This document shows, piece by piece, positions 1,882-62,022 of a stretch of 64,000 nucleotides of DNA (the first letter of the stretch is position 1; every line of letters begins with the position of its first letter). Source of the stretch: Siphonodentalium dalli (lineage: Eukaryota; Mollusca; Scaphopoda; Gadilida; Siphonodentaliidae); contig CP136065.1 of assembly GCA_032622095.1 (NCBI GenBank), positions 242,027,530-242,091,529 of the forward strand, read 5' to 3'. The translations under genes were made by a program, and so were the position numbers. The notes under the pieces were generated by a model. The model saw nothing but the letters and a program-made list of their open reading frames with translations, ran no database searches and was not told where the DNA came from.

Positions 1882-2281
1882 TTAACCCTTTACAAAACAA
1901 ACCGGCCAAAACCGGCCAAATAAAGCTTCAACAGCCTAAAATATCTTCGGTCTGTCTCAATAAAACCATACAAATATGGATATCATTGGAACCGGCTCCT
2001 TGACCATATTGTGATAGTTACAGTTATACCCTGTGCCAATGCATTCTCTTATATATGCGAGTCGACCATAGGTCGCCTCGCATATATAAGAGAATGCATT
2101 GGCCTAAAAAAAATCTTTTTTTAACACTTTTTACCATTTTTTCTTACATTCTTTAACAATTTTATAATTTTTAATGTGTTAAGCCAATGCATTCTCTTAT
2201 ATATGCGAGGCGACCTATGGTCGAATCGCATATATAAGAGAATGCATTGGCACAGGGCCCTTCTGTTGGGTAACAGGTTAA
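1882..2281 (+). mobile_element. PAL element E1, type 1 termini, TTAA-flanked
   Basis: Bounded by TTAA (1882-1885 and 2278-2281). The left end is TTAACCCTTTACAAAACA, and the right end is the inverted form of the family terminus TTAACCCTTTACCCAACA with small changes. It contains two 67-bp palindromes at 2036-2102 and 2184-2250, separated by an AT-rich spacer, and flanked outward by CCCTGTG and CACAGGG. A 150-bp left arm with the ACCGGCCAAA motif repeated twice has no counterpart on the right. No protein is encoded, and the frame at 2176-2634 only crosses the palindrome. Close relatives lie at 12955-16160, 18191-18575 and 20465-20860. Confidence 0.8.
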
Positions 2282-2693
2282 CAAAGAACGCTCTTTATTG
2301 TTTCTCACTTTTTATATTTTGCAGATTTACCCGAAAGCTTGGATATATAATATTACTGCACAGGTCTAACACATCAACTAATACTGCGAATCAAGACATC
2401 TTCATTTCATTACAAAAGTCTGAGGAGGTAACCAATATATTTAAATATCGATCGATCGCGGAACCATACAATTCAACATTATTTATTTATTATACTATAC
2501 GTACATTGCGATGTGACTTTATGTGCCAAATTGAGAATAAAATATCGTTTACACTAAATAACAAGAGGCGATGCAACAATAATACCGAAGATAGTCATAT
2601 TTGTGGCCGACCCTTCACTTCATTCGCCTCATAGTTTACATTTTTCCTATGTAAAACAATCTCGTATGCATAAGAGAATTGATCATTGTAAAT
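2282..2693. other. No gene recognised
   Basis: AT-rich. It begins with the short dispersed motif AAAGAACGCTCTTTATT. The open frame running through it starts in the preceding palindrome and shows no domain. Confidence 0.45.
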
Positions 2694-3160
2694 ATATGTG
2701 ACCCGCCATATCAAATCCAGTCTTAAGTCGGGATTTTTTTACCCTGTGCCAATGCATTCTCTTATATATGCGAGTCGACCACAGGTCGCCTCACATATAT
2801 AAGAGAATGCATTGGCCTAACAATTTTTTACAATTTTAATATTTTTTTCTTGTATTCTTTAACAATTTTATAATTTCACCCATACAGAGCCCCAGACAAA
2901 CATGAGCAGACGACACTATTCTATATGCTTCTATATATGTGTGGGGCTTCCTGCATGGTAATGGATGTTTTTTATTTTATGTCCTAAAAATTGTAAGAAA
3001 CATTTATTTAAAAAAAAATGATAAAACATTGTTAGGCCAATGCATTCTCTTATATATGCGAGGCGACCTATGGTCGACTCGCATATATAAGATAATGCAT
3101 TGGCACAGGGTAAAAAAATCCCGACTTACGACTGGATTTGATATGGCGGGTCACATATGT
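2694..3160 (+). mobile_element. PAL element E2, type 2 termini
   Basis: The long terminal inverted repeats (about 55 bp) start ATGTGACCCGCCATATC and include AAGTCGGGATTTTTTTACCC. They lead directly into two palindromes at 2749-2815 and 3037-3103. The spacer contains a block with AGAGCCCCAGACAAACATG, also found at 7480-7560 (inverted) and 48018-48100. The termini are unrelated to type 1, but the palindrome and its CCCTGTG/CACAGGG borders are the same. A target-site duplication cannot be read with confidence because the flanks extend the inverted repeat. Confidence 0.75.
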
Positions 3161-3751
3161 TCACATATGTTTTTCTCTCACCAAACTTTAATTAATCAGT
3201 TCATTAATCTTCTCATTATGCTCTGTTTTCTTCCTCTTATATACTTAATCTTGCCTTCCACTTCTCACTGACCACTATATGTATACTTTTATTTTCTTAG
3301 GAGATAGCTGTATAAGTATATAGCTTGTTGCCAAATCATCTACCCCCTTCAACCCTTTATATACATACTTGTGTCATGCTTACTAATTATTTTATATTCG
3401 GTAAGAAATAGTTATTGTTAAAACCAACAGTTGCCAAAATTATCAAATTTCATATCAGATAACAAAACGTGAGTTCCAAATCTCTGTTGTCATAATTCGT
3501 GCTAAGCTCGACCACCTGTTCGTGACGGGTATTAGATTTTTGCTCTATATCCCCCACATACTTTTATAAATAGAAGTCAGAGATAGGCTGTCGGTTATAT
3601 GGTGAATTCTTCAGATTACAAACCAGCTTCTTAAGAACGCGATCTGTCAGCGCCTGTCTAGATTACAGTATCGCCCTGTTTCATTTCTAAATTTTAGGAT
3701 TGGGTTATGTTTGTTTCGAGTTATATGCACTCTTATCGGCGCATCTGATGC
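3161..3751. other. No gene recognised
   Basis: AT-rich, with short frames only. No repeat relationship was noticed. Confidence 0.45.
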
Positions 3752-4024
3752 CTATGTTTTCCCGTCCAACCAATCACGAATAATCTCACACTGATCTTCT
3801 CTGAGGCCAATTATGTTATATGTTTCGTTGGAAGGCTGTTGCATGAACAACAGCGTTATACTAACTTGAGGGACACCATAAGCGTGCGGAATGCCTTGTG
3901 CATCCCGGCCAAATATCAAGCAAAAACGCTTCAAAGTTGTGCTACAGTTTGATATTTCAGAAGAACCATCGACAACAGCGCAAGTCGTAAAACCTGATTT
4001 AAATATAGACAAGACTGCGTTCAT
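3752..4024 (-). CDS. Unrecognised open frame, possible exon
   Basis: A 90-codon frame on the minus strand without stops. Its translation has a balanced composition (for example LIFGRDAQGIPHAYG and IIGLREDQCEIIRDWLDGK), unlike the low-complexity frames around it. I do not recognise a family. No splice sites or promoter are evident, and the opposite strand is also open across part of it. It could be a decayed element fragment or a chance frame. Confidence 0.2.
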   Translation of the reverse strand: MNAVLSIFKSGFTTCAVVDGSSEISNCSTTLKRFCLIFGRDAQGIPHAYGVPQVSITLLFMQQPSNETYNIIGLREDQCEIIRDWLDGKT

Positions 4025-4065
4025 CTGTCAAAGGTTTTGGCAAATTGAAAAATATTCCGTTTCCC

Positions 4066-4112
4066 GGTGTGTGTGTGAGGGTGTGTATGTGTGTGTGTGT
4101 GTGTATATAATA
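4066..4112. repeat. GT-rich microsatellite
   Basis: An interrupted (GT)n tract followed by ATATAATA. Confidence 0.8.
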
Positions 4113-4269
4113 TTTTTGTTTCGTCTCAAATGGCACAGGGCCACACCCAATCTGACACCCCCATGTATATTTACTAATGCGTGTGCATAAGCCAAAATTA
4201 TGAAACATGTTTGGTGACTGCAAATTAAGAACATAATTTGGCCCAGAGCCCTACATAACTTGGGGCAAT

Positions 4270-4687
4270 GAAATGGAGAGGCAGGTGCTAGCTCGTTTTA
4301 GGGCTAGTTCACACAGCTTGGAAATCGAGAAGGGTAGATTGATGCATTGATTTAGGCATTGGTGCAGATAAAAGATTATGCGAATTATGTAAACTAGAAG
4401 TTGGAGACGAGCAACACTTCATGGTGAAATGTCCAAAGCTGGAGAATGTGCGCAAGCCTCTTTTGAATCAAATAATAAATAAATATCCCAATATCAAGGT
4501 ATTAGATGATAGCAATAAGTTCATATGATTCATGAGCTCCGAGGACACCTCCGTAATGAAATGGCTAGTCCACTTACTGATATCGCTATTTTCTGCTAGG
4601 TCCCTAATTCTGACTGACAATCCAGCAAGCAAAGTAAAAACCATTACCTTGGCATACACACGCTGCAAACCTTCATTATTTTATTAA
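4270..4687 (+). pseudogene. Decayed LINE ORF2 C-terminus (family 1)
   Basis: The translation in two frames gives VLARFRASSHSLEIEKGR, then after a frameshift RLCELCKLEVGDEQHFMVKC. This is the CX2C-X8-H-X4-C zinc-binding tail typical of non-LTR retrotransposon ORF2 proteins (zf-RVT type). An internal stop lies near 4527 and the frame ends at 4687. It is a truncated, non-functional 3' fragment. A second, better preserved tail from another LINE follows at 4738. Confidence 0.65.
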
Positions 4688-4737
4688 TTGTTTCCTTATA
4701 AATATACATTTTATTAATTGTTTCCTTATAAATATAC
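4676..4737. repeat. Direct duplication of about 30 bp
   Basis: The block TTTTATTAATTGTTTCC plus TTATAAATATACA occurs twice head-to-tail, exactly between the two LINE tails. It could be a target duplication or replication slippage. Confidence 0.7.
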
Positions 4738-5510: not shown

Positions 5511-5636
5511 TTCTATATAATTATGTCCAAACCTTCAAATACGGTGTCTAGACTTCTGTAATGCCACCATTGTTACCTGACAATATACCACTACCCACCA
5601 TCTACCATTCAGTCATGTTACAGACAAAGGATTATT

Positions 5637-5766
5637 GTACAAGTACTTAATTCTCAATCATCGAAATCGTAACTGTTTTTTATTTGGTATACTATGTATA
5701 TCACCCTAATTCACTGCCTGTGAAGGCGCCTATGATTGGCAAATAAAGTGATTCTATTCTATTCTG
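5637..5766 (+). mobile_element. Second copy of the family 2 LINE 3' end
   Basis: Closely matches 5370-5505, including CTCAATCATCGAAATC, TATATCACCCTAATTC, GGCAAATAAAGTGATTC and the same ATTCT tail. It has only about 130 bp of 3' UTR, so it is a severely truncated insertion next to its relative. Confidence 0.8.
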
Positions 5767-7279: not shown

Positions 7280-7660
7280 ATGTGAGCCGCCATATCAAAT
7301 CCAGTCGTAAGTCGGGATTTTGTTTTACCCTGTGCCAATGCATTCTCTTATATATGCGAGTCGACCATAGGTCGCCTCGCATATATAAGAGAATGCATTG
7401 GCCTAACAATTTTTTTTCATTTTTTTAAAAATAAATCTTTCTTACAATTTTTATGACATAAAATAAAAAAACATCCATTACCCTGCAGGGAGCCCCACAC
7501 ATATATAGAAGCATATATAAAAGTGTTGTCTGCTCATGTTTGTCTGGGGCTCTGTATGGGTGAAATTATAAAATTGTTAAAGAATACAAGAAAAAATTAT
7601 TAAAATTGTAAAAAATTGTTAGGCCAATGCATTCTCTTATATATGCGAGGCGACCTATGG
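7280..7660 (-). mobile_element. PAL element E3, type 2 termini, truncated
   Basis: The terminus TGTGAGCCGCCATATC with AAGTCGGGATTT leads into a palindrome at 7335-7401. The spacer matches E2 but inverted (GGGGCTCTGTATGGGTG). A second palindrome begins at 7624 and stops after its centre at 7660, where unrelated sequence starts. The copy is therefore in reverse orientation to E2 and lost one end inside the palindrome. Confidence 0.75.
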
Positions 7661-9180: not shown

Positions 9181-9184
9181 GTGT

Positions 9185-9734: not shown

Positions 9735-10112
9735 TGATCGATATATTTAAAGTGATGTGAAACACTCCGATAGGGTGATAAAATATTAGTGGAGAATAAT
9801 CTTGTTCAAAGAATTAATTTTTACAAATATATTATATCCAAATTGACCAGATACCATCATTCTTATATATTAATTCAATGCAGTGAAATCGTTTTCGTAA
9901 GTTTATCGCCGATAGATGCGTCCCGAATCGAGTAGTAAATATTATACAATTGAGCATAGTTCAGACGATGTTTTCTATGGAGTGGTACGGTGGATTTGCT
10001 TCAGATTTTCGGCGACGTTAGTAGAATGCTACATTCACACAGTTGACATAGCGCATGAGTACTAACTTATCAGTTTCACGCACCCGAACAAGTACATAAT
10101 ATATATTTAAAT
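9735..10112 (+). repeat. Family I element, full copy
   Basis: Starts TTTAAAGTGATGTGAAACAC and ends near ATATTTAAAT. The interior includes TTTATCGCCGATAGATGCG, GACGATGTTTTCTATGGAGT and TACTAACTTATCAGT. It aligns end to end with 61573-61948 and, without its first third, with 19580-19795. Both ends carry TTTAAA, so TTAA target use is possible but not shown here. Confidence 0.65.
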
Positions 10113-12954: not shown

Positions 12955-13187
12955 TTAACCCTTTGCCCAACAAAACGGCCAAAACCGGCCAAATAAAGCT
13001 TCAACAGCCTAAAATATCTTCGGTCTGTCTCAATAGAACCATACAAATATGGATATCATTGGAACCGGCTCCTTGACCACATTGTGATAGTTACAGTTAT
13101 GCCCTGTGCCAATGCATTCTCTTATATATGCGAGTCGACCATAGGTCGCCTCGCATATATAAGAGAATGCATTGGCCTAAAAAATCT

Positions 13188-16042
13188 GCATCATAATATG
13201 GCATCAATGCGACAAGTGTGGATATCTGCCGGGAGACCACGGGAGGAATCACACATTGCATATAGAGCATACAAAGACGCAAAATGTCTATTTCGTGCAC
13301 AATTCCGCAAATCGAACGAGCTCTATCTCCAAGAAATGGATGACAAGCTAGACAAAATGGCCGAACTTGACATAAACAGCTTTTTTAGGGCTTTCAACAA
13401 AAGGAAAGTTCAACGGCAAACCGCATCAAACTGTTTATTTGAAGTAAACGGTTCCACACTTAGAGACCCACAGGCGGTAATTGAAGCTTGGTCATCTTAT
13501 TATGAGAACCTCTATTCCCCATTACAATCTAACGATTTTGACGAAAAACACTTTTCATATGTTAACGCGGAAATTGAGAACATTCCCTCGTCGCACGGGT
13601 ATAGCGACATTGATGCAGATTTATGTTTCAATGTGTCTATTGATGAAGTAAAATATGTACTGCAAAATGCCAAGAAAGGCAAGGCGCCTGGTTTAGACAC
13701 CTTATGTTATGAACATATAATTTATGGTGGAGAGCGCCTGCAGAGCTCAGTTGCAACATTGATGTCCAAAATGGTTGAACTCAACCACGTCCCAGCACGA
13801 GCCAAAATAGGCCTTATGGTACCGCTCTTCAAAGGCGGCAATAAATCCAAAAAACAATTTGATAATTATCGTGCTATCACATTGCTCCCTGTTTTATATA
13901 CTATATTTGAGAAAATTATTTTGAACCGTCTTGAAAACTTTTCAACAGATCTCATCAAAGTACACCCACTGCAACATGGATTTCAAAAAGGGGTTAGCTG
14001 CCTCGCGTCGTCCTTCATAATTCAGGAAAGTATCGCCTTCACGGCCGAAAATCACAGCCCACTGTTTGCTTGTTTTTTAGATGTCCGTAAAGCATTTGAC
14101 ACAGTTTGGATTCACGGTCTCCTGCTCAAACTCTATCAACGTGGATTCACTGGTGAAATATGGCATATAATCAGTTCTCTGTTAAGTGGAATAAAATGCT
14201 CTGTTCAATTTAATGGTTCGATTTCGCGATACGTCGATATACAACAGGGAACACGTCAAGGAAGTATACTCGCCCCCTTATTTTACATGATCTTCATCGA
14301 TGAACTAATTTTCCAACTTGAAAACAGTCACCATGGTTTGCGCGTCGGTTCTGCGTGTTGCGCATCGCCAACTCAAGCCGACGATATGACTCTCTTGTCT
14401 CTAACTTCTTCTGGTCTCCAAACTTTGTGTGACCTATGCAGCTCATACAGTAAAAAATGGAGATTTAAATACAACCAGGATAAATGCAAAGTAGTCATTT
14501 TTAATGAACCATCTTCCTTACAAAAGTCCCGAGAAACAGTAGTTTGGATTGTAAATGATGAACCCGTGTCGGTGTCAGATCAGGTCACGCACCTTGGAAT
14601 CCCATTACAAAACATTAACATGGGCAACCATCTGAATGACCACATATGCAACAAAATACGATCTACGTATCTCATGTTAAGTAACGCTGGTATGTATGCC
14701 GGTGGCATAACACCCCTCAGCTCAAACACTTTGTACAACACTGTAGTTTTACCCAAAGGCCTATACGGGTCTGAATTCCTTTGCGGCATATCTTTGACAA
14801 ATGAAAACTCGTTGGAAAAAGTTCACAGGTTTTGCTTAAAACAAATTCAAGGACTCCCTTATAGAGCGCGCACAGATGTGGTACAAGGCTTACTTGGACT
14901 ATGCCCTCTATCAGCAATTATCGACAAGAGAAAACTTAGTCTGCTTGGGTCTCTTTGCAGGACGGCACATGGAAAGACATCGAAAACGATTTTCATGTTC
15001 CGTCTTAAGAGTCACCTTCAACAATCTAATTGTAATGCATCGTTTATTTCAGAAATCATTAAAATTCTAGACAACTATAACCTCACATCCTATCTAACAT
15101 CGTTTCTAGAAGAAGGACACTTCCCATCCAAGGACGCATGGAAATCCCTCATAGTAACAGAAATCAAACAAGCAAACGAGCAGTCATGGCAGACACGATT
15201 ACGCAATGAACATGCCCTAGTCCCATTCGCAAATAATCATAGTTCACTGTCAATTTCACCTCTTTGGCTAGCATGTAGAAGCTATCCTCAACATAAGCTT
15301 GAATTTCTAGAAATAGCCAAAATCCTGACCCGGGCCTTATCCCCAGTACACGGAAAGTGTCAGATATGTCATAAACTCTTTAAAAACGAAATCGAACATG
15401 CAATCCTCTTATGTTCCGCCTTTGCCGAGACAAGAATCGAAATATGGTTCAATGTCATAGAGGACTTCGGTATACCTTGTTTCTTATATATTGACAACTT
15501 GAGCCCCGTAGATCAGTTGATGATATTTCTTGCTTGCATTCCGCCACCCATGCGGGACCTCGTAAATGATATTAAGCAATTTACCATGTTTCTTGTTCGA
15601 AATTCATTTAAACTGTGGAAAATGTATACGGATCTATCGACTAAATGGATCACTTGTAAACCGCTCACGAACCGCTCTGCTCGAAGACAGAAACAATATC
15701 TACATAATTAATTTGTATTTAGTAGCATCTAACTAAACATGATATACACATGTACTTTATAACGAAAATAAAGCTATATCGCAGACAACTCAGTCTCGCT
15801 CCATTCGACAGATACTCGTATAATTATCCAGTTGAAGTGTTTCGTGAAATCAGAAATACACGAGGCCTACAGGTGTAATGCTTATACCTCATTGAATTTG
15901 TATTGCGCATATTTTGTGTATAAAACCATGTGATATATTGATGTTTATTTTTTGTCAACTATGTTGAAACACTAATCTTGTGTATGATGCATAATGTTTA
16001 AACTCTCCGTTTGCGGAGGAAATAAAGGTATATATATATATA
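13188..16042 (+). mobile_element. 5'-truncated non-LTR retrotransposon (LINE)
   Basis: The left junction follows CCTAAAAAATCT of the E4 spacer. The right end is the 3' UTR, closing GAGGAAATAAAGG and a (TA)n tail, after which the spacer resumes as TAATTTTTAATGTG. About 47 bp of spacer present in E6 are missing, so the insertion came with a target deletion or replaced that stretch. Only the RT-to-C-terminus part of ORF2 is present. The apurinic-type endonuclease expected at the N-terminus is absent. Confidence 0.85.
13198..15711 (+). CDS. LINE ORF2 protein, partial: reverse transcriptase and C-terminal zinc motif
   Basis: Reverse transcriptase of a non-LTR retrotransposon, which would copy its own RNA at a nicked target. 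The frame is open from 13084, but the first 30 or so codons are MITE and palindrome sequence. I start at the first ATG within LINE sequence (13198). Numbering from 13084: KGKAPGLD lies at about 200, motif A FLDVRKAFDTV has Asp at 333, motif B QGTRQGSILAPLF begins at about 388, and motif C is QADD at 431-434 (the usual aromatic before ADD is Gln). The thumb-like HLGIPL follows, then CQICHKLFKNEIEHAILLC (CX2C-X9-H-X4-C, 759-777). The frame has no stop or frameshift over 838 codons, so the copy is young or recently active, though it lacks the endonuclease. Confidence 0.88.
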   Translation: MASMRQVWISAGRPREESHIAYRAYKDAKCLFRAQFRKSNELYLQEMDDKLDKMAELDINSFFRAFNKRKVQRQTASNCLFEVNGSTLRDPQAVIEAWSSYYENLYSPLQSNDFDEKHFSYVNAEIENIPSSHGYSDIDADLCFNVSIDEVKYVLQNAKKGKAPGLDTLCYEHIIYGGERLQSSVATLMSKMVELNHVPARAKIGLMVPLFKGGNKSKKQFDNYRAITLLPVLYTIFEKIILNRLENFSTDLIKVHPLQHGFQKGVSCLASSFIIQESIAFTAENHSPLFACFLDVRKAFDTVWIHGLLLKLYQRGFTGEIWHIISSLLSGIKCSVQFNGSISRYVDIQQGTRQGSILAPLFYMIFIDELIFQLENSHHGLRVGSACCASPTQADDMTLLSLTSSGLQTLCDLCSSYSKKWRFKYNQDKCKVVIFNEPSSLQKSRETVVWIVNDEPVSVSDQVTHLGIPLQNINMGNHLNDHICNKIRSTYLMLSNAGMYAGGITPLSSNTLYNTVVLPKGLYGSEFLCGISLTNENSLEKVHRFCLKQIQGLPYRARTDVVQGLLGLCPLSAIIDKRKLSLLGSLCRTAHGKTSKTIFMFRLKSHLQQSNCNASFISEIIKILDNYNLTSYLTSFLEEGHFPSKDAWKSLIVTEIKQANEQSWQTRLRNEHALVPFANNHSSLSISPLWLACRSYPQHKLEFLEIAKILTRALSPVHGKCQICHKLFKNEIEHAILLCSAFAETRIEIWFNVIEDFGIPCFLYIDNLSPVDQLMIFLACIPPPMRDLVNDIKQFTMFLVRNSFKLWKMYTDLSTKWITCKPLTNRSARRQKQYLHN

Positions 16043-16160
16043 TAATTTTTAATGTGTTAAGCCAATGCATTCTCTTATATATGCGAGGCGACCTATGGTC
16101 GACTCGCATATATAAAAGAATGCATTGGCACAGGGCCCTTCTGCTGGGTAAAAGGGTTAA

Positions 16161-18190: not shown

Positions 18191-18575
18191 ACCATTTACC
18201 CAACCGAAGGGCCCTGTGCCAATGCATTCTCTTATATATGCGAGTCGACCATAGGTCGCCTCGCATATATAAGAGAATGCATTGGCTTAACACATTAAAA
18301 ATTATAAAATTGTTAAAGAATGTAAGAAAAAATGGTAAATTGTACACGAGACATCAATTTAATGCATTCTCTTATATATGCGAGGCGACCTATGGTCGAC
18401 TCGCATATATAAGAGAATGCATTGGCACAGGGCATAACTGTAACTATCACAATGTGGTCAAGGAGCCGGTTCCAATGATATCCATATTTGTATGGTTCTA
18501 TTGAGACAGACCGAAGATATGTTAGGCTGTTGAAGCTTTATTTGGCCGGTTTTGGCCGTTTTGTTGGGTGCAAAA
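18191..18575 (-). mobile_element. PAL element E5, type 1, reverse orientation, decayed ends
   Basis: Same structure as E1 and E6 but inverted: palindromes at 18219-18285 and 18359-18425, then the long arm with GGAGCCGGTTCCAATGATAT and TTTGGCCGGTTTTGGCCG. The termini read ATTTACCCAACCGAAGGG and TTGTTGGGTGCAAAAAC, so the TTAA at both ends has been lost. Part of the spacer next to the second palindrome is replaced by GTACACGAGACATCA. Confidence 0.78.
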
Positions 18576-19579: not shown

Positions 19580-19795
19580 CTTTTCGTTAGTTTATCGCCG
19601 ATAGATGCGCCCCGCATCGAGTAGTAAATATTTACAATTGAGCGTAGTTTTGACGATGTTTTCTATGGAGTGGTACGATCGATTTGCTTCAAATTTTCGG
19701 CCATGTTAGCAGAATGTTACAGCCTGAGTACTAACTTATCAGTTCCACGCACAGGAACAAGTACATAACATGTCTTTAAAAGTACATGAATAGTA
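19580..19795 (+). repeat. Family I element, 5'-truncated copy
   Basis: Matches the last two thirds of 9735-10112 (TTAGTTTATCGCCGATAG through ACTAACTTATCAGTTCC) and ends ACATGTCTTTAAA. Confidence 0.65.
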
Positions 19796-20464: not shown

Positions 20465-20860
20465 TTAACCCTTTACCCAACAAAACGGCCAAAACCGGCC
20501 AAATAAAGCTTCAACAGCCTAAAATATATTCGGTCTATCTCAATAGAACCATACAAATATGGATATCATTGGAACCGGCTCCTTGACCACATTGTGATAG
20601 TTACAGTTATGCCCTGTGCCAATGCATTCTCTTATATATGCGAGTCGACCATAGGTCGCCTCGCATATATAAGAGAATGCATTGGCCTAAAAAATCTTTT
20701 TTAAACACTTTTTACCATATTTCTTACATTCTTTAACAATTTTATAATTTTTAATGTGTTAAGGCAATGCATTCTCTTATATATGCGAGGCGACCTATGG
20801 TCGACTCGCATATATAAGAGAATGCATTGGCACAGGGCCCTTCTGTTGGGTAAAGGTTAA
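20465..20860 (+). mobile_element. PAL element E6, type 1, intact reference copy
   Basis: TTAA (20465-20468) then CCCTTTACCCAACAAAAC. It ends CTTCTGTTGGGTAAAGG before TTAA (20857-20860). Palindromes lie at 20619-20685 and 20764-20830. The spacer is about 78 bp and contains ATTCTTTAACAATTTTATAA. At about 388 bp between the TTAA copies it is the best reference for the unnested type 1 element. It interrupts a family E unit. Confidence 0.85.
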
Positions 20861-23072: not shown

Positions 23073-23506
23073 TTAACACTTTGAGTGCCACGGGCCAGAT
23101 CGGCCCTAATTTACGTTCTGTAAAATCGGCCCTAAAAAAAAATTAAAAATAAAACAAAACATTTTTTTTTATAGAATTTTTTTAAGTATGCTTAAGCATG
23201 CTATAGGGCATGTTATAACTCAAAACTATCACCAAGTATTCATAGTAATAATTTTTATGCCCATGAAAAACGTAAGATTCCCTGGCCCTAAACCTACAAA
23301 ATAAGCCTGTTAAAGAATATAAGAATCAATTATTAAAATCGTAAAAAATTGTAAAAAATAATAACAAATGATGAAAAATTGTTAGGCCAATGCATTCTCT
23401 TATATATGCGAGGCGACCTATGGTCGACTCGCATATATAAGAGAATGCATTGGCACAGGGTATATGGGTTTATACAAAAAATCGGACCTGCCACTCAAAG
23501 CGTTAA
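23073..23506 (+). mobile_element. PAL element E7, type 3 termini, TTAA-flanked
   Basis: The left end TTAACACTTTGAGTGCCA (TTAA 23073-23076) and the inverted right end GGCAGGTCC/CACTCAAAGCGTTAA (TTAA 23503-23506) give imperfect terminal repeats of about 17 bp. These have the CACTTTGAGTG form seen in piggyBac-type termini. Only one palindrome is present (23387-23453), with CACAGGG on its outer side and the usual GTTAGG on its inner side. The interior is AT-rich and non-coding. Confidence 0.78.
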
Positions 23507-25037: not shown

Positions 25038-25080
25038 CCGAGAGGAGTTGTTGGGCCAGCTCCAGTCATGAAAGGGTTAA
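25038..25080 (-). mobile_element. Isolated type 4 terminus
   Basis: Reads, inverted, TTAACCCTTTCATGACTG followed by GAGCTGGCCCAACAACTCC. The same terminus begins PAL element E8 at 32092. No palindrome accompanies it here. Its TTAA (25077-25080) is shared with the start of the adjacent family C copy. Confidence 0.55.
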
Positions 25081-32091: not shown

Positions 32092-32549
32092 TTAAACCTT
32101 TCATGACTGGAGCTTCCTGATTATTTTGCGAAAACCCTGTGCCAATGCATTCTCTTATATATGCGAGTCGACCACAGGTCGCCTCGCCTATATAAATGAA
32201 TGCATTGGCCTAACAAATTTTATATTATTTTTTTATAATTGTTAAAGAATGTAAGAACAAAAGAAAAAAAAAATTGTTAAAGAATGTAAGAAATAATGAA
32301 ACAAAATTATAAAAATTGTTAAAGAATGTAAGAAAAAAATATAAAATTGATAAAGAATGTAAGAAAATGATAAAAAAAAAATCTAAAATTGTTAAAGAAT
32401 ATAAGAAAAAATGATATTTTTTTTTATAGAATGTACAAACAAGTTATAAAAAAAATTTATAGTAATTGTTAAAGAATGTAAGAAAAAGTGATAAAAAATG
32501 ATAAAAAAAAATTGTTAGGCCAATGCATTCTCTTATAAGTGCGAGGCTC
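32092..32549 (+). mobile_element. PAL element E8, type 4 terminus, 3' end lost
   Basis: Starts TTAAACCTTTCATGACTG, then GCGAAAACCCTGTG and a palindrome with worn arms (32142-32208). The spacer is an array of about six ATTGTTAAAGAATGTAAGAA units separated by A-rich stretches. A second palindrome begins at 32520 and breaks off at about 32548 within its first arm (CTTATAAGTGCGAGG). The same short spacer motif appears once in the other PAL elements, so here it was amplified. Confidence 0.75.
32239..32486. repeat. Tandem spacer motif of E8
   Basis: GTTAAAGAATGTAAGAA recurs about every 30-45 bases with variable A-rich filler. Confidence 0.75.
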
Positions 32550-32635
32550 CCGAAGACAGTTCTCGACGATGTTAACTAATGGGGTGTATCCACATTATTG
32601 AACTTTTGAAAACGAGGGTTCTCCAATAAAAGCCC

Positions 32636-38710: not shown

Positions 38711-39120
38711 CTAACTTAGAATGTCCAACCTTAACCCCATAACACAGACAAAATTTAAAAATACTTGAAATTTTATGTGCACCATCTTTAGAATGCAGTC
38801 TAAGTCAAACCTAGCTAGCTACGCGTTCGATCGTCTGAAACAGTTCACTGAGGACACTTCCTATACAGTCGCCCACGTTCGCTGTAAATAATATTACCCG
38901 GTAGTCCCCGCAGTATGACGTCATCACGCACATTTGACATTAAAAATACTGTTATGATTGACAGATATCTACTTTCGTTTTCACGAATACACAAATTCGA
39001 TGCTGATTGTTGAAAGATTTGGAAATATTTAATTATATTCTTCTTGTTAGGTAATATTTGTCATTGCGGGATTCTTTATAGGCGTTTTTAGTGTTTAATT
39101 ATTTGTCGTAATCTTTAAAT
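38711..39120. other. Left flank of the satellite; no gene recognised
   Basis: AT-rich, short frames only. The satellite begins abruptly at about 39121. Confidence 0.45.
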
Positions 39121-42100: not shown

Positions 42101-45100
42101 ACCCCTACTCAGCTATGTGTTAACATTTATTACCCTTACTTAGCTATATGTTAACATTTATTACCCCCACTCAGCTATGTGTTAACATTTATTACCCTTA
42201 CTCAGCTATGTGTTAACATTTATTACCCCCTACTCAGCTATGTGTTAACATTTATTACCCCCTACTCAGCTATGTGTTAACATTTATTACCCCTACTCAG
42301 CTATGTGTTAACATTTATTACCCCTACTCAGCTATGTGTTAACATTTATTACCCTTACTCAGCTATGTGTTAACATTTATTACCCCCTACTCAGCTATGT
42401 GTTAACATTTATTACCCCCTACTCAGCTATGTGTTAACATTTATTACCCCTACTCAGCTATGTGTTAACATTTATTACCCTTACTTAGCTATATGTTAAC
42501 ATTTATTACCCCCACTCAGCTATGTGTTAACATTTATTACCCTTACTCAGCTATGTGTTAACATTTATTACCCCCTACTCAGCTATGTGTTAACATTTAT
42601 TACCCCTACTCAGCTATGTGGCGGGGTTAACATTTATTATCCCCCTACTCAGCTATGTGTTAACATTTATTACCCTTACTCAGCTATGTGTTAACATTTA
42701 TTTCCCTTACTCAGCTATGTGTTAACATTTATTTCCCCCTACTCAGCTGTATGTGGTTGTTGAACATTTATTACCCCCTACTCAGCTATGTATTAACATT
42801 TATTACCCCCTACTCAGCTATGTGTTAACATTTATTACCCCTACTCAGCTATGTGGGGGTTAACATTTATTACCCCCACTCAGATATGTGTTAACATTTA
42901 TTACCCCCTACGCAGCTATGTGTTAACATTTATTAACCCCTACTCAGCTATGTGTTAACATTTATTACCCCTACTCAGCTATGTGGCGGGGTTAACATTT
43001 ATTATTCCCCTAATCAGCTATGTGTTAACATTTATTACCCTTACTCAGCTATGTGGCGGGTTAACATTTATTACCCCTACTCAGCTATGTGTTAACATTT
43101 ATTTCCCTTACTCAGCTAAGTGTTAACATTTATTTCCCCTTACTCAGCTGTATGTGGTTGTTGAACATTTATTACCCCCTATTCAGCTATGTGTTAACAT
43201 TTATTACCCTTACTCAGATATGTGTTAACATTTATTACTCTTACTCAGCTATGTGTTAACATTTATTACCCCCTACTCAGCTATGTGTTAACATTTATTA
43301 CCCCCTACTCAGCTATGTGTTAACATTTATTACCCCTACTCAGCTATGTGTTAACATGTATTACCCCTACTCAGCTATGTGTTAACATTTATTACCCTTA
43401 CTCAGCTATGTGTTAACATTTATTACCCCCTACTCAGCTATGTGTTAACATTTATTACCCCCTACTCAGCTATGTGTTAACATTTATTACCCCTACTCAG
43501 CTATGTGTTAACATTTATTACCCTTACTTAGCTATATGTTAACATTTATTACCCCCACTCAGCTATGTGTTAACATTTATTACCCTTACTCAGCTATGTG
43601 TTAACATTTATTACCCCCTACTCAGCTATGTGTTAACATTTATTACCCCTACTCAGCTATGTGGCGGGGTTAACATTTATTATCCCCCTACTCAGCTATG
43701 TGTTAACATTTATTACCCTTACTCAGCTATGTGGCGGGTTAACATTTATTACCCCTACTCAGCTATGTGTTAACATTTATTTCCCTTACTCAGCTATGTG
43801 TTAACATTTATTTCCCCCTACTCAGCTGTATGTGGTTGTTGAACATTTATTACCCCCTACTCAGCTATGTGTTAACATTTATTACCCTTACTCAGATATG
43901 TGTTAACATGTATTACCCCCTACTAAGCTATGTGTTAACATTTATTACCCCCTACTCAGCTATGTGCTAACATTTATTACCCCTACTCAGCTATGAGGCG
44001 GGGTTAACATTTATTATCCCCATAATCAGCTATGTGTTAACATTTATTACCATTACTCAGCTATGTGGCGGGTTAACATTTATTACCCCTACTCAGCTAT
44101 GTGTTAACATTTATTTCCCTTACTCAGCTATGTGTTAACATTTATTTCCCCTTACTCAGTGTATGTGGTTGTTGAACATTTATTACCCCCTATTCAGCTA
44201 TGTGTTAACATTTATTACCCTTACTCAGATATGTGTTAACATTTATTACCCTTACTCAGCTATGTGTTAACATTTATTACCCCCTACTCAGCTATGTGTT
44301 AACATTGATTACCCCCTACTCAGCTATGTGTTCACATTTATTACCCCTACTCAGCTATGTGTTAACATTTATTACCCCTACTCAGCTATGTGTTAACATT
44401 TATTACCCTTACTCAGCTATGTGTTAACATTTATTACCCCTACTCAGCTATGTGTTAACATTTATTACCCCCTACTCAGCTATGAGTTAACATTTATTAC
44501 CCTTACTTAGCTATGTGTTAACATTTATTACCCCCACTCAGCTATGTGTTAACATTTATTACCCTTACTCAGCTATGTGTTAACATTTATTACCCCCTAC
44601 TCAGCTATGTGTTAACATTTATTACCCCTACTCAGCTATGTGGCGGGGTTAACCTTTATTACCCCCCCTACTCAGCTATGTGTTAACATTTATTACCCCC
44701 TACTCAGCTATGTGTTAACATTTATTACCCCCTACTCAGCTATGTGTTAACATTTATTAGCCCTACTCAGCTATGTGTTAACATTTATTACCCTTACTTA
44801 GCTATGTGTTAACATTTATTACCCCCTACTCAGCTATGTGTTAACATTTATTACCCCCTACTCAGCTATGTGTTAACATTTATTTCCACTACTCAGCTAT
44901 GTGTTAACATTTATTACCCTTACTTAGCTATGTGTTAACATTTATTACCCCCACTCAGCTATGTGTTAACATTTATTACCCTTACTCAGCTATGTGTTAA
45001 CATTTATTACCCCCTACTCAGCTATGTGTTAACATTTATTACCCCTACTCAGCTATGTGGCGGGGTTAACATTTATTACCCCCTACTCAGCTAAGTGTTA

Positions 45101-47560
45101 ACATTTATTACCCTTACTCAGCTATGTGGCGGGTTAACATTTATTACCCCTACTCAGCTATGTGTTAACATTTATTTCCCTTACTCAGCTATGTGTTAAC
45201 ATTTATTTCCCCCTACTCAGCTGTATGTGGTTGTTGAACATTTATTACCCCCTACTCAGCTATGTGTTAACATTTATTACCCTTACTCAGATATGTGTTA
45301 ACATGTATTACCCTCTACTAAGCTATGTGTTAACATTTATTACCCCCTACTCAGCTATGTGCTAACATTTATTACCCTTACTCAGCTATGTGGGGGGTTA
45401 ACATTTATTATCCCCTACTCAGCTAAGTGTTAACATTTATTAACCCCTACTCAGCTATGTGTTAACATTTATTACCCCCTACTCAGCTATGTGTTAACAT
45501 TCATTACCCTTACTCAGCTATGTGTTAACATTTATTACCCCATACTCAGCTATGTGTTAACATGTATTACCCCTACTCAGCTATGTGGCGGGGTTAACAT
45601 TTATTATCCCCCTACCCAGCTATGTGTTAACATTTATTACCCTTACTCAGCTATGTGTTAACATTTTTTACCCCCTACTCAGCTATGTGTTAACATTTAT
45701 TACCCTTACTCAGCTGTATGTGGTTGTTGAACATTTATTACCCCCTACTCAGCTATGTGTTAACATTTATTTCCCTTACTCAGCTATGTGTTAACATTTA
45801 TTTCCCCCTACTCAGCTGTATGTGGTTGTTGAACATTTATTACCCCCTACTCAGCTATGTGTTAACATTAATTACCCCCTACTCAGCTGTGTGTTAACAT
45901 GTATTACCCCCTACTCAGCTATGTATTAACATTTATTACCCTTACTCAGCTATGTGTTAACATGTATTACCCCCTACTCAGCTATGTGTTAACATTTATT
46001 ACCCCCTACTCAGCTGTGTGCTAACATTTATTACCCTTACTCAGCTATGTGGGGGGGTTAACATTTGTTACCCCCTACTCAGATATGTGTTAACATTTAT
46101 TACCCCCACTCAGCTATGTGTTAACATTTATTACCCCCTACTCAGCTATGTGTTAACATTTATTACCCCTACTCAGCTATGTGGCGGGGTTAACATTTAT
46201 TACCCCCCTACTCAGCTATGTGTTAACATTTATTACCCTTACTCAGCTATGTGGCGGGTTAACATTTATTACCCCTACTCAGCTATGTGTTAACATTTAT
46301 TTCCCTTACTCAGCTATGTGTTAACATTTATTTCCCCCTACTCAGCTGTATGTGGTTGTTGAACATTTATTACCCCCTACTCAGCTATGTGTTAACATTT
46401 ATTACCCTTACTCAGATATGTGTTAACATGTATTACCCTCTACTAAGCTATGTGTTAACATTTATTACCCCCTACTCAGCTATGTGCTAACATTTATTAC
46501 CCTTACTCAGCTATGTGGGGGGTTAACATTTATTATCCCCTACTCAGCTAAGTGTTAACATTTATTAACCCCTACTCAGCTATGTGTTAACATTTATTAC
46601 CCCCTACTCAGCTATGTGTTAACATTTATTACCCTTACTCAGCTATGTGTTAACATTTATTACCCCATACTCAGCTATGTGTTAACATGTATTACCCCTA
46701 CTCAGCTATGTGGCGGGGTTAACATTTATTATCCCCCTACTCAGCTATGTGTTAACATTTATTACCCTTACTCAGCTATGTGTTAACATTTTTTACCCCC
46801 TACTCAGCTATGTGTTAACATTTATTACCCTTACTCAGCTGTATGTGGTTGTTGAACATTTATTACCCCCTACTCAGCTATGTGTTAACATTTATTTCCC
46901 TTACTCAGCTATGTGTTAACATTTATTTCCCCCTACTCAGCTGTATGTGGTTGTTGAACATTTATTACCCCCTACTCAGCTATGTGTTAACATTTATTAC
47001 CCCCTACTCAGCTATGTGTTAACATTTATTACCCCCTACTCAGCTGTGTGCTAACATTTATTACCCTTACTCAGCTATGTGGGGGTTAACATTTATTACC
47101 CCCTACTCAGATATGTGTTAACATTTATTCCCCCCACTCAGCTATGTGGCGGTGTTAACATTTATTATCCCCTACTCAGCTATGTGCTAACATTTATTAC
47201 CCCTACTCAGCTATGTGCTAACATTTATTACCCTTTCTCAGCTATGTGGGGACATTTATTAGCCCCTACTCAGCTATGTGTTAACATTTATTTCCCCCAC
47301 TCAGCTATGTGGCGGGGTTAACATTTATTACCCCCTACTCAGCTATGTGTTAACATTTATTTCCCTTACTCAGCTATGTGTTAACATTTATTTCCCCCTA
47401 CTAGGCTATGTGGCGGGGTTAACATTTATTTCCCCATACTCAGCTATGTGTTAACATTTATTACCCCCTACTCAGCTATGTGGGGGTTAATATTTATTAC
47501 CCCATACTCAGCTATGTGTTAACATTTATTACGCCCTACTCAGCTGTATGTGGCGGGGTT
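39121..47560. repeat. 8.4-kb satellite array, 31-33-bp units with higher-order structure
   Basis: Roughly 260 head-to-tail units of GTTAACATTTATTACCCC then TACTCAGCTATGT. Units differ at the C/T run (CCCC, CCCCC, CCTT), the TTATTT variant and inserts such as GTGGCGGGG. A rare variant, CTGTATGTGGTTGTTGAAC, marks higher-order repeats: it recurs at about 41517/42747 and 41927/43147 (1.22-1.23 kb apart) and at 45220/46347, 45715/46842, 45816/46944 (1.127 kb apart). All open frames here are satellite translations, identical between copies, and not genes. Confidence 0.97.
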
Positions 47561-47757
47561 TACTGGAATTGCAGTCGCTAAAGGAATTTCGACAGGTCTT
47601 GGAGCTTCCACGCGGCTATCTTCTGATTGGCTTCATCGTTTTGCTGTGTATTGTTTTGATTGACTGACACGTATGTAATGCTTCTAGGGATTAATGGGAT
47701 TTCCTATGTAAGACTACCGACCACGTTGATAGGTAAATAGGCTGGGTTTGACGTATA
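47561..47757. other. Right flank of the satellite; no gene recognised
   Basis: Unique-looking sequence with no domain. Confidence 0.4.
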
Positions 47758-47883
47758 ACGCCATGAGTCTCTACGCTGGCTAACGGTCGTAGAGATCATG
47801 TTTCACCAGAACAAAAACTTCGAACTAGTTTTGACAGAGACTTATAAATTTGAAATAATAATGTGGGGAATAAATTTAACAAT
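47758..47883 (+). repeat. Family B fold-back repeat, left-end fragment
   Basis: CCATGAGTCTCTACGCTGG, CGTAGAGATCATGTTTCACC and AATGTGGGGAATAAATTT follow the first 120 bp of the family B copies at 48105, 52419 and 63556, then stop at a PAL element. Confidence 0.65.
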
Positions 47884-48104
47884 ACCCTGTGCCAATGCAT
47901 TCTCTTATATATGCGAGTCGACCATAGGTCGCCTCGCATATATAAGAGAATGCATTGGCCTACAATTTTTTTACAATTTTAATAATTTGTTCTTGTATTC
48001 TTTAACAATTTTATAATTTCACCCATACAGAGCCCCAGACAAACATGAGCAGACGACACTCTTCTATATGCTTCTATATATGTGTGGGGCTCCCTGCAGG
48101 GTAA
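47884..48104 (+). mobile_element. PAL element E9, type 2 interior, incomplete
   Basis: ATACCCTGTG, a palindrome at 47892-47958, then the type 2 spacer (TATTCTTTAACAATTTTATA, AGAGCCCCAGACAAACATG, GTGTGGGGCTCCCTGCAGGG) up to a new family B copy. The outer terminus and second palindrome are missing. Confidence 0.7.
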
Positions 48105-48594
48105 TGAATCTCTACTCTGGCTAGCGGCCGTATAGATCATGTTTCACCAGAACAAAACCTGGGAACTTGTTGATGTTCTGACCCGTTCTTTATAACATTG
48201 AACAAACAAGGCAGGGACTATATGTCTTTGTTAATACTTGTTCCTCAATAATCTACTTCACAATAGAAGGTGGTCGCAGCTCGAGATTGCATGACTTTTG
48301 TGAGCCTATGTATCAATAAACATTGAAGAAGGAGGGATTCCATAATTGTAAGCGACGCAAAGCAAAATCGCTGTCAAAATCACTTAAATCATGCAATTTC
48401 GAGTTGGGATCTTCACCTACAGTGAAGTACAATATTAAGGAACAGGTAGTAACTAAGAAATATATTCCCCGCATTATATTATCGACTTTATAAAGTTCCC
48501 TGTCAAAACTTCAAAAAGTTCCCAGGTTTTGTACTGGTGGAATATGATCTCGATACGGGCGTTGGCCATATAGCCGAGATTCATGGCATGATCT
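48105..48594. repeat. Family B fold-back repeat, full copy
   Basis: Nearly symmetrical element. The left end TGAATCTCTACTCTGGC with GATCATGTTTCACCAG is mirrored by CTGGTGGAATATGATC and GAGATTCATGGCATGATC at the right, with further paired blocks (TTGTTCCTCAATAAT / ATTAAGGAACAGGTA). Arms are about 200 bp and the centre holds GTAAGCGACGCAAAGC. No coding sequence. Confidence 0.75.
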
Positions 48595-49189
48595 AGGTTT
48601 GACACAGACTGCATGGCTGGAATGTCCATCAAGTTTTCCAACTATTGGAAAATATCAACCTGAGACCCCTTTGGTTGAATATTTCCAAGTCCAAGAAATT
48701 AACCGAAATTAAGAGAATGTTCAACTTATAGTCTGAAGCAACATATCTTATCCCTAAATACTGGCTGGTAAATCAAACTAACAGAACAATTTCGACCTAG
48801 TATTGTTTGAAATTTATAACTGATATTGGGTCAGGTCGTGACATTTCGAAATATTTAATAATATTTTGACCAAAGTCTAGAAAGGGGTAGACACTATCAA
48901 CTAACTACTTTATCATCATGTCTATATATACATATATCTGATTTACGAAGGCACTGACTCGGTGTGAGTTTTCATTGGTTATATATGCTTGCTTCAGTGA
49001 GCGTGAGGAAAGTTCCATTTTTATCGAAATGGTCATGCATGTAGCGATCGGAATGGCAGACTGAGATGTCGCTCAACTCAGATTAAGCTAAAGATCGGTC
49101 CAGATTTCTGCCAATGGTTTTGAACCCACGCCAACCTGGTCTAGCCCTGACTGCAATGAAGGTACATATATCAATTATCTGATCACCTC
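48595..49189. other. No gene recognised
   Basis: Short frames. TTTTCCAACTATTGGAAAAT at about 48636 recalls the motif cluster at 50280-50830. Confidence 0.4.
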
Positions 49190-49984: not shown

Positions 49985-50017
<33 letters not shown>

Positions 50018-51746: not shown

Positions 51747-52418
51747 CACATAATTGTCTGCTGTGATGCTATTGTATGTTAATTAATTACCGTATGCTAC
51801 AATATCAAACAGTGCATGTGCAGAAAGCGAATGATTGTAAAACAAGCCACGTCTGGGGTCATATTGTGAAAACAAATTATGTAGCCACATAAAACAAATT
51901 GTAAGAATGTATAGCCTTGACAGTTGTATTGTTTTTTCATAGGCACATAATGTGGCATGATAATAGGTAGTCGTATGGATACAAGTTATCATACAACATC
52001 ATGGATAGTCACCCTTCAACTATTAAGTTACCGTGTTTCTAAAGTCTTCTTTAAACGGACATGGCTCATTCGAACCTCCAAAATTGTTTTCTTCGTAATT
52101 TGGAACGACGAATACGATAGGTCGATAAATCAATACACGAACTATTGATATACGTGCTTCATATGCTCTGAAAAACACTTGCCGAAGTTACATCAATTTC
52201 TCAGTAGTTTTTAACTTGTTGCCAGAAGTCAGACAAACGTTCTTTATTGCTACCATATCAGGAATAGACTATCACGAAACGCTCTTTTCTGTTCCATTTC
52301 GGGCAAATGTCTGTTTTGTGTTTGGGACCCAAAGGGCGTATTCACAGTTGTATTTTTCAGTACTTCGATGCGTCTTTTTGGGTTACACAATGCTCGCAGA
52401 AAGGTAGTTCAGATATTT
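51747..52418. other. No gene recognised
   Basis: Short frames. At about 52230-52300 it holds AACGTTCTTTATTGC, TACCATATCAGGAAT and AAACGCTCTTTTCTG, a diverged relative of the family C end. Confidence 0.4.
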
Positions 52419-52896
52419 GAATCTATACTCTGGATGACGCCCGTAGAGATCATATTCCACCAGTACAAATCGTTCGAAATTTTGAAGTTTTGACAGGGAA
52501 CCCTATAAAGTCCAATAAAATTACACTGACAATATATTTCTTAGTTGTTATCTGTTCCTCAATACTGTACTTCAATGCAGGTGAATGTCCCAACTCAAAA
52601 TTGCATGCTTTTCCGTGACTTGTGAGCCGAAATCGCAATAAACTTTGAATTAATAACCCAGGAGAAATGTCATCATTGTAAGCGACGCGACGCAAAATCG
52701 CTCACAAATTCACTTAAATTTTGAAATTTCGAGTACATTATTAAGGAATATATAGTAACTAAGAAATATATTCACCACGTTATTTTTTCGACTTTATAAA
52801 GTTCCCTGTCAAAACTTCAAAAAGTTCCAAGGTATTGTACTGGTGGAATATGATCTCTACGGGCGTTAGCCAGAGTAGAGATTCATGGCATGATCT
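52419..52896. repeat. Family B fold-back repeat, full copy
   Basis: GAATCTATACTCTGG, GTAGAGATCATATTCCACCA and TTTTGAAGTTTTGACAGGGA on the left are mirrored on the right by TCCCTGTCAAAACTTCAAAA, TGGTGGAATATGATCTC and CCAGAGTAGAGATTCATGG. Centre GTAAGCGACGCGACGC. Same family as 48105-48594. Confidence 0.8.
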
Positions 52897-53399
52897 ATAT
52901 CACTGTGGGGGAACCACTCCTGGCGATTTTGTTCTCTACCGAGCAATATTTACATTCTCTACCGAGCAAATTTTCCGATTCTTTGCATTTTTGCTCATTT
53001 TCGTGACATCGTCATACTCACAGCAAGTTTTCTGCCACGTGTTATCTCGAATCATCACAACAGAAGGAGCAATAGACGATGTTTGGAAATTACTCGGTAT
53101 TTGTCAGTTGGCGAGGAAAATATCATATTGCGTACACGTACATTTGACATATCTAGTTCCTGATTGAGAGGTATAACATAAAACGTTTTAGCCAGTGAGA
53201 TAATACATTTAGAACTGGGCAATATTATTATTATATAGAACTGTATAACATTTTTGAAAGCAATTTGATTTTATTATACTTTTAAGTATTATATGTAATA
53301 TAGTATGCGTTTCAGGCGCAGTGAAGCAAATACGTCTGCCTACGACTTCGCTCTTTAAAATTGGATTTTCCGTACGTTACTTGTGGGGTGCACCGGGTC

Positions 53400-57385: not shown

Positions 57386-57388
57386 TCT

Positions 57389-57940: not shown

Positions 57941-58335
57941 TGTGTGTGTGTAATCGATGAACTCGAAAACGGCCGACTTGATTTAGATGAAACTTGGTAT
58001 GTGGGGGTATTTTGGGCCGGGGGGTGACATAAGCCTATTGATTTTCAGATCCGAGGTAAACTTTTTACGTGCCGAGGTCAAATCTGTTTTTACACTGTGT
58101 TACGGGACTTTCATTTGAGTTCGGTGCTTACAAATCGATTCGAAACAGCGCGAATAATAAAATGCCAGTCATAATAATGACACTGTGAGAATCTTTCGTG
58201 TTTCCTCTTTCCAACGATATATAATGCGTATGTATCCGTTTTAGTTATCTGCCTCAATTATCAAGAAGAAGTGGTACTATCTTCCATCAGGATAAAAACA
58301 ATGCGTATCTTCTATGACGTCGTTAGAGGTCATAA

Positions 58336-60373: not shown

Positions 60374-61099
60374 ACGTTAGATCACGTTAACGCTTAACCG
60401 GCCGATGCATTTGACTGTTTCAGACGTCTTGGCGATATCTCGGGCACCGATGGTAATTTATCTTTACGTTGAAACTTGATAATTAATGAGCGTGTGTATA
60501 TGAGGCGCGTTTATATACTTGAGTGGAAATCAAATCGGGTTAAACTGGCGAATTTTTACGGACGAAATTTGATGCATAGGGTATCTCGGTATCCGCTGGG
60601 CCGATTTCCCGGTATCCGCTGGGCCGATTTCCACCATTTACGACGTGACCTTGACCTTGAAATCGGGTCATTTCAAGGTCAAACGCCCGATTATCACGGG
60701 ATTTCGATGAAACTTGGTATGTGGGGGTACTTTCGTATGGGGAGTCTCATAAGCATATTCATTTGCCCGTGCGACGTGACCTTGACCTTGAAATCGGGTC
60801 AATTCAAGGTCAAATCGCCAATTTTGATGGTATTTCGACGAAATTTTATACATAGGGTTACTTTTGTCCACTGGGTGTTTTGGACGGGTCAAATCGTGAC
60901 CCCGACCTGACCTTGACCTTCAAAATGATCAATTCAAGGTCAAATCGGGTAAAACCGGATGGATTTCGACGGGTACTTTTGTCGGGTACCTTTGTCCGGG
61001 CAGTGTTTTGGACTGGTCAAATCGTTACCCCACTTGACCTTGACCTTCAAAATGGACAATTCAAGGTCAAAGCCCGGACGAAGTCGGGTCACCTTCTAG

Positions 61100-61130
61100 T
61101 ATATATATTTATATATATATATATATATAA
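61100..61130. repeat. TA-rich tract
   Basis: Imperfect (TA)n immediately after the Helitron-like 3' end. Confidence 0.8.
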
Positions 61131-61204
61131 GGCCACGAGAAAATGGAATGCTATTTACAGGCAATTTTCAGTAGCATCGGAACACGTCGTACTATCGAGT
61201 GTTT

Positions 61205-61315
61205 ACTTATCATGTAGTTAGTTATATGTGCTACAGATGCGTTTTATATATAAGCATGTCTGCAATTATAGTTATATGTGCTACAGATGTATTTTATATA
61301 TAAGCATGTCTGCGA
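61205..61315. repeat. 56-bp direct duplication
   Basis: TAGTTATATGTGCTACAGAT through AAGCATGTCTGC occurs twice in a row. Confidence 0.85.
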
Positions 61316-61550
61316 TCATTTTCTGGCAGATTATAGGTTTCTGTATCGAAATACCTGCACAAAACATTCCAGACAAATTTCCAGTTTGTATGAACGAGGC
61401 CTTAACACTTTCATAGAGTTCACGACGGAGTAGCGCTGGTGCGGCATTCAAGATCATGTGCCAGAGCAAACTCGTATATAAGCGAATCTCCCATTGGGAG
61501 CATCGCATATAAGATAATGCACTCATGGCTTACAACTTCAAGGTAACTAT

Positions 61551-62022
61551 TGTTAGGCGAATGTATTCTCTAAAAGTGATGTGAAACACTCCAGTTGTGT
61601 GATAAAATAGAAATGGAGAATAATCTTGCTCAAAGTAGTTATTTTTATGAATATTAATCCAAATTTACAACACACACCGTAAGTCTTATATATTTATAAA
61701 ATGCAATGAGTATCGATGGCAAAATCATTTGCGTTAGTTTATCGGCGATTATTGCGTCCCGAATCGAGATGTAAATATTTACAATTGAGTGTAGTTCAGA
61801 CGGTGTTTTCTATGGAGTTGTATTTGGTCGATTTCTTTGAGATTTTTGGCGATGTTAGTAGAATGCTACATTCTCTCATATGGCATAGCGCCTGCATACT
61901 AACTTATCAGTACCACGTACCCGAACAAGTCCATACTATGTCTTTAAATATATGCGAGGCTCACAAATATATCAGAGAATGAATTGGCATAGTGTTTTCG
62001 CAAAATTTCATGGGAGGATTAA
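61551..62022 (+). mobile_element. PAL element E10, type 4 remnant, split by a family I insertion
   Basis: TGTTAGGCGAATGTATTCTC (inner border and first arm of a palindrome) is cut at about 61572 by a full family I copy and resumes at about 61947 as ATATATGCGAGGC, then ATCAGAGAATGAATTGGC, ATAGTGTTTTCGCAAAAT and TTAA (62019-62022). The TTTTCGCAAAAT stretch identifies the type 4 border seen, inverted, in E8. The palindrome centre is shortened. Confidence 0.55.
61573..61948 (+). repeat. Family I element, full copy nested in a palindrome
   Basis: AAAGTGATGTGAAACACTCC to ATGTCTTTAAA, aligning with 9735-10112 along its whole length. Confidence 0.7.

Follow-up and report, generated by a model that had tools for sequence, protein, structure and literature searches.

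The question raised by this locus is how one and the same palindromic module came to lie inside short transposon-like elements whose ends are unrelated to one another. The locus is a window of 64,000 nt on contig CP136065.1 of the mollusc Siphonodentalium dalli, to which all plain coordinates refer; the elements of the window carry E-numbers, and loci in the sampled 10-kb stretches outside it carry L-numbers (e.g. L016:2048). The initial annotation had listed 17 positions of a 67-bp near-perfect palindrome in carriers with four unrelated sets of termini, here called types 1 to 4. All 17 positions proved real, fourteen being whole 67-bp copies with 0-4 differences from the consensus, two (7624 and 32520) broken copies and one (61551) a split relic, and an additional relic was found at 61461-61528. 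The module occurs in very large numbers and breaks off sharply at CCCTGTG; type 4 carries its oldest copies, and three younger families, whose tips are unrelated, carry nearly identical ones. The explanation that we favour, with a probability of about 0.42, is that a single non-autonomous transposon chassis, sharply bounded at CCCTGTG, was introduced into different end-sets a small number of times, in founder events, and was then amplified together with them.

In the 67-bp consensus, 31 bases on each side pair, one position is a T.C mismatch and the loop is ATA. When CCCTGTG, the 67 bases and CCTAA were folded as single-stranded DNA, a hairpin of -36.1 kcal/mol was obtained (z -15.9), and 0 of 200 shuffles were equally good; the relic at 61461-61528 folds far more weakly (-10.3, z -2.5). 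The outer flank CCCTGTG is present in 14 of the 14 whole window copies, as had been described, while the inner flank agreed in part: CCTAA/TTAGG was found as claimed, except that the type 1 right arms read CTTAA; in addition, the copy at 18359 is without its inner edge and that at 47892 reads CCTAC. Inside the palindrome, CYTAA occurs in nearly all copies and is followed by AT-rich sequence containing TTCTTACATTCTTTAACAATTTTAT or a variant of this motif, which is present in all four types and, when anchored, shows 1-4 differences per ~33 bases between carriers (by eye). Because this inner motif is common to the types too, the shared unit is larger than 67 bp. Several type 4 copies carry a different interior.

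The genome was searched in 2.23 Gb on 9 contigs for three patterns, namely the 74-mer of CCCTGTG plus palindrome, and the module with either the type 1 right arm or the type 2 arm. By pattern count, the exact 74-mer occurs 81,964 times (41,075 forward and 40,889 reverse), whereas its reversed control gave 0+0 in the genome, which excludes a chance origin. In thirty 10-kb stretches taken at round-number positions, 300 kb in all outside the window, 34 matches were found in 10 of the 30, degraded ones included, and this extrapolates to a total of ~250,000 matches genome-wide, again with degraded ones included (bootstrap 111,000-438,000). The window itself is dense in the module, with 18 matches per 64 kb. 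The type 1 right arm AGAAGGG lies directly outside 15,939 of the 81,964 exact modules and the type 2 arm TTTTTTA directly outside 8,380, both numbers being lower bounds for the arm, as 7-base flanks undercount (7 of 13 locally examined exact copies match the type consensus over 7 bases). These large counts behind the two arms indicate that the same module is abundant under arms that are not homologous.

The four sets of termini are indeed as unrelated as first described. Type 1 ends with TTAACCCTTTACCCAACA, type 2 with TGTGACCCGCCATATC (tips TGTGACCCGCC), type 3 with TTAACCCTTTGAGTGCCA and type 4 with TTAACCCTTTCATGACTGGAGC; the tips are inverted, and the elements measure ~150-460 bp, inserted copies aside. 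Types 1, 3 and 4 end at TTAA, as piggyBac elements do at both ends, and type 2 ends at TA. TTAA was found at both ends of five window elements (E1, E4, E6, E7 and E10) and of four type 1 and three type 3 sampled copies listed with a palindrome, and it has decayed in E5 and in several type 4 copies. Type 2 lacks the TTAA, TA/ATAT adjoining its tips, and all 3 complete copies are flanked by TA at either end, which may belong to the tip itself; the arms of E2 reach right up to the module and differ from each other at 1 of 44 bases. A single palindrome was seen in all four type 3 copies, the inner side of the module stopping at an internal TTAA, which in the L006 copy itself serves as the tip of a 94-bp type-3-like element. 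The distance from tip to module (TTAA included; for type 2, measured from GTG) is in most cases 41-46 bp in type 2, in type 3 and at both ends of type 4 (40, 38 or 29 in some decayed type 4 copies), and about 24 and 147 bp in type 1.

Clear tips were found with and without a palindrome within 230 bp in the ratio 16:0 for type 1 and 7:0 for type 2, and one extra weak tip match for each (4 and 5 mismatches, respectively) has no palindrome within that distance. For the palindrome-free type 4 tip at 25080 an empty TTAA site was sought and not found, the score being no better than shuffles. Tips TTAACTCATTCAGTGCC of other TTAA elements lie at L011:4908 and L011:6497, with no palindrome within 230 bp. 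The annotation had named the presence of the core in further carriers or alone as support for its reading, and this was borne out only in part: no clear new carrier type appeared among the 34 matches in the 300 kb outside the window, the typed ones of which belong to the same four types, but the window holds one fifth context at 47885, in a repeat that we call R. Four of 33 sampled matches were untyped, three being cut within the palindrome and the other, L016:2048, resembling type 4 only over the last ~10 bases; the automatic arm typing has errors, W32507 having been typed t1L and two truncated copies having been given odd or meaningless distances. Copies of R without the module continue past the point at which the module of E9 starts. 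Repeat R, of ~480 bp with inverted arms of ~155 bp, lies at 47755-48600, 52418-52897 and 63555-63993, and its arms are also present in L003 and L004, with a short match in L020.

The outer edge of the module is sharp at CCCTGTG, beyond which the between-type identity is 0.23-0.36, at or near background. Local alignments of the outer arms, made with hand-written consensus arms, gave p>=0.15 against shuffled sequence in 14 of 15 pairs, and only the two ends of type 4 match each other. The edge falls at the same base in types 1, 2 and 3 and in the right arm of type 4, and TA adjoins it in type 2 (both sides), type 3 and R. It had been considered that all carriers might turn out to be diverged versions of one ancestor, which is not what is seen outside the module, where the arms are non-homologous; as judged from these alignments, the carriers differ by non-homology and not by faster divergence.

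The age order of the carriers was read from the identity of copies to the nearest class consensus in the 43 of 52 matches that span at least 70 query bases. The medians were 90.6% in type 4 (15 copies), 97.7% in type 2 (7), 98.7% in type 1 (17) and 98.8% in type 3 (4), with loose arm matching that left no copy untyped, so that the copy in R (E9) is counted under some type. Type 4 is, by median identity, the oldest carrier. Its centres belong to class B or C in 10 of 15 copies and to class A in 5 of 15, including L011:4490 and E8, and L011:8551 has a hybrid A/B centre; in some type 4 versions three class-defining stem pairs are changed on both sides. Types 1 and 3 have no centres other than class A, and the same is true of type 2 apart from one centre-deleted copy. 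This distribution suggests that the class-A chassis arose within type 4.

The annotation had further suggested that the module is either selected or separately mobile, and had named a core more conserved than the termini as support. Such extra conservation was not shown within type 1, where 5/536 changes in the core compare with 12/560 in the outer left arm (Fisher p=0.14), so selection is not shown by this comparison; of the suggestion itself, the sharing of the module by carriers with non-homologous arms stands. A divergence of 37% for the inner part against 2.5% for the core, taken between types in pairs of 8 of 10 copies (two broken copies dropped), was rejected as an overstated contrast, because AT-rich tracts misalign. 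Across the classes the stem covaries in the 29 of 42 copies used, the 13 left out being repeats of a given row: 91.8% of cells are paired vs 89.2 in shuffles, 20 cells are changed on both sides vs 8.4 (0 of 500 shuffles reach 20), and the covariation score is 0.088 vs 0.009-0.041 when slid. The numbers of doubly changed pairs (4; on average 4.3 in shuffles) and of further pair types (17; 17.2) do not exceed those of shuffles, and three stem pairs hold 19 of the 20 doubly changed cells, so these cells may go back to a small number of inherited changes. Of the 25 rows readable at the mismatch, 23 retain T.C, and the loop still reads ATA in 24 of 27. In the 61461 relic the decay is mostly on one arm.

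The palindrome also tends to break in its middle. Every one of the six internal deletions of 8-22 bases reaches or crosses the centre (product of chances 0.008), in a test chosen after the copies had been seen and with a 2-base loss in L014:1802 not counted. Together with the break in E3 and that in the right palindrome of E8, which is apparently near the centre if its class-B-like letters (GGGAG) are indeed class B, these deletions are as a hairpin or cruciform would give. At L015:9425-9676 a single palindrome lies between both type 1 arms and looks like a deletion product, a form expected of recombination between two palindromes. On the other hand, the elements typed at both ends were concordant in 13 of 13 cases, none having ends from different types (7 further listed pairings have one end untyped, and the test covers types 1, 2 and 4), which disfavours habitual end-swapping.

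The chassis proposed here would consist of CCCTGTG, the 67-bp near-palindrome, CYTAA and the AT-rich interior, with the mirror image of this order at the opposite end in all types but type 3. From a class-A branch of type 4 it would have passed into founder copies of the three other types, and on one occasion into repeat R; it would have done so as a discrete unit with its limit at CCCTGTG, probably by transposing itself into TA-rich sites. The resulting composites would then each have been amplified by whatever transposase reads the new tips. The symmetry of the palindrome suggests that it was part of the end read by the original transposase of the chassis. Capture of such a unit agrees with the constant position of the edge, with the TA adjoining it in type 2, type 3 and R, and with the occurrence in R itself, and the lack of clear palindrome-free tips in types 1 and 2 fits founder events of either kind, by capture or by recombination. 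Several observations weigh against this explanation. No clean target-site duplication of the module was found, its flanks in type 1 being GG to the right and, to the left, TG in three copies and TA in one, and those in type 4 being AA, or AT at the left end. In E9 the right junction is lost, so that the insertion site in R rests on one junction and is suggestive; the last 7-13 bases before its CCCTGTG are ambiguous, looser matching assigned it to one of the types, and it is the single fifth-context copy in 364 kb. The similar tip-to-module spacing in types 2, 3 and 4 is not predicted by random insertion. No transposase was seen in the 14 of 20 window open reading frames of at least 100 amino acids that were scanned with Pfam, and the genome was not searched for a piggyBac-type family.

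The same picture could have arisen by recombination, if one chassis lineage had swapped its outer tips through gene conversion or template switching, helped by hairpin breakage and with no transposition of the unit. The breaks and deletions at the centre, the hybrid centre of L011:8551, the lone palindrome at L015:9425-9676 and the want of clear palindrome-free type 1 or 2 tips all speak for such re-heading, as do the chimeric Galileo copies described in the accessible part of PMC3573991; since the doubly typed ends are concordant, however, swapping must be infrequent, and the edge stays at one base instead of being scattered, which leaves this account rather unlikely in our estimate, if the nearest competitor. 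More doubtful is the view that the palindrome is a selected functional end element, a hairpin or a binding site of a transposase or host protein, which the families share because they need it. The excess of doubly changed cells, the covariation score, the retained mismatch and loop and the similar tip spacing would agree with it, and piggyBac-type transposases bind subterminal palindromes according to the part of PMC11707139 available; yet the core of type 1 is no better conserved than its own arm, the counts of pairs and pair types stay at the level of shuffles, the 61461 relic has decayed unevenly, type 1 has its own spacing and type 3 has one palindrome. Descent of all types, tips included, from one ancestral TTAA element is disfavoured as very improbable: types 1, 3 and 4 share TTAACCCTTT or close variants and the interior motif is common, but the arms are non-homologous beyond the tip, type 2 has a TA-type tip, and similar TTAA tips also occur without a palindrome within 230 bp. 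Local duplication or an assembly artefact, which the dense window might recall, is refuted by the counts, as the matches outside the window lie in separate stretches and the exact copies are about equal on the two strands.

Table 1. Elements and palindrome features located in the window
Feature	Position	Strand	Description
E1	1882..2281	+	Type 1; TTAA at both ends; two palindromes, 2036-2102 and 2184-2250
Example of the 74-bp module	2029..2102	+	CCCTGTG and the 67-bp palindrome; pattern counted genome-wide
E2	2697..3155	+	Type 2; tips TGTGACCCGCC; TA on both sides; palindromes 2749-2815 and 3037-3103
E3	7281..7660	+	Type 2; right palindrome broken 3 nt from the centre
E4	12955..16160	+	Type 1; TTAA at both ends; interior replaced by a truncated retrotransposon
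E5	18195..18569	-	Type 1; decayed TTAA ends; one inner edge replaced
E6	20465..20860	+	Type 1; TTAA at both ends
E7	23073..23506	-	Type 3; TTAA at both ends; lone palindrome 23387-23453; inner side ends at an internal TTAA
Type 4 tip	25059..25080	-	22/22 bases; no palindrome within 230 bp
E8	32092..32551	+	Type 4; left palindrome of class A, 4 changes; broken right palindrome; minisatellite interior
E9	47885..48108	+	Left half of a type-2-like module in repeat R (fifth context); right half absent
E10	61402..62022	+	Old type 4 relic; TTAA at both ends
E10 left palindrome	61461-61528		Variant centre
E10 right palindrome	insert about 61573-61949		Split by another repeat

Several elements carry inserted or expanded sequence. 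The insert of E4, at 13186-16040, is a reverse-transcriptase element (PF00078, E 2.7e-28); it is truncated, has a TA-rich tail and is 37% identical to its best database protein. An open reading frame of 875 amino acids at 13084-15711, whose frame crosses the palindrome, was considered as E4's own gene and rejected, being read as part of the truncated retrotransposon insertion. The interior of E8 at 32237-32414 is a minisatellite of the motif that the other types hold once or twice, many of its units having TTAA, and a type 4 copy at L025:238-566 has an interior with a long inverted repeat resembling another insertion. A dispersed repeat lies at 9749-10112, 19581-19780 and 61573-61949, one copy having landed inside a type 4 palindrome, and an 8.4-kb tandem array of a 31-bp unit (~259 copies) occupies 39119-47545. 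Rfam at the gathering score gave 0 matches in the window, the palindrome had 0 matches in viral and prokaryote sequence collections, and six stretches of the sequence had no match in the papers searched.

With their short length, inverted terminal tips and high copy number (81,964 exact modules), the carriers have the features of miniature inverted-repeat transposable elements (MITEs). MITEs of the piggyBac superfamily are short, have TTAA on both sides and CCC...GGG tips and reach very high copy numbers, as is also seen here, but the 67-bp near-palindrome lying ~20-150 bp inside the tip and common to other end types sets the present elements apart. Type 2, with its tips TGTGACCCGCC... flanked by TA, resembles TA-target (Tc1/mariner-like) MITEs in that respect, and unlike them it shares its interior and palindrome with the TTAA types; the superfamily names given to the tips are those that we take the target site and tip pattern to imply. 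Palindromes just inside the tip are also found in piggyBac and piggyBat, where, in the part of PMC11707139 available, they are ~14-19 bp long and bound by a transposase domain, whereas ours is 67 bp long and extends across end types. The Galileo/Foldback elements of Drosophila are alike in having chimeric copies and end sequences exchanged between Galileo subfamilies; unlike here, the exchange described in the accessible part of that report (PMC3573991) is between subfamilies of one transposon, while our elements have non-homologous arms, different target sites and concordant ends. The modular, non-autonomous pearl-family MITEs of bivalves (such as DTC84) have internal tandem repeats, and DTC84 has a conserved palindrome near the repeat junction, as far as the available part of PMC5139131 describes them; the likeness is one of description, and several unrelated end-sets distinguish the elements of S. 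dalli.

A more far-reaching proposal, which we regard as improbable at present, is that the palindrome is a portable, structure-selected transposon part, either a hairpin or a dimer-binding site with its nearly fixed mismatch and loop, which works behind unrelated TTAA and TA tips, and that the chassis repeatedly changed transposase by changing tips. The usual classification of MITE families goes by their ends, and each family is commonly supposed to depend on a single kind of transposase. A chassis under three TTAA-type tips and one TA-type tip, in tens of thousands of copies whose relative ages can be read, would amount to an experiment made by nature on how non-autonomous transposons pass from one transposase to another and on the contribution of a long subterminal palindrome.

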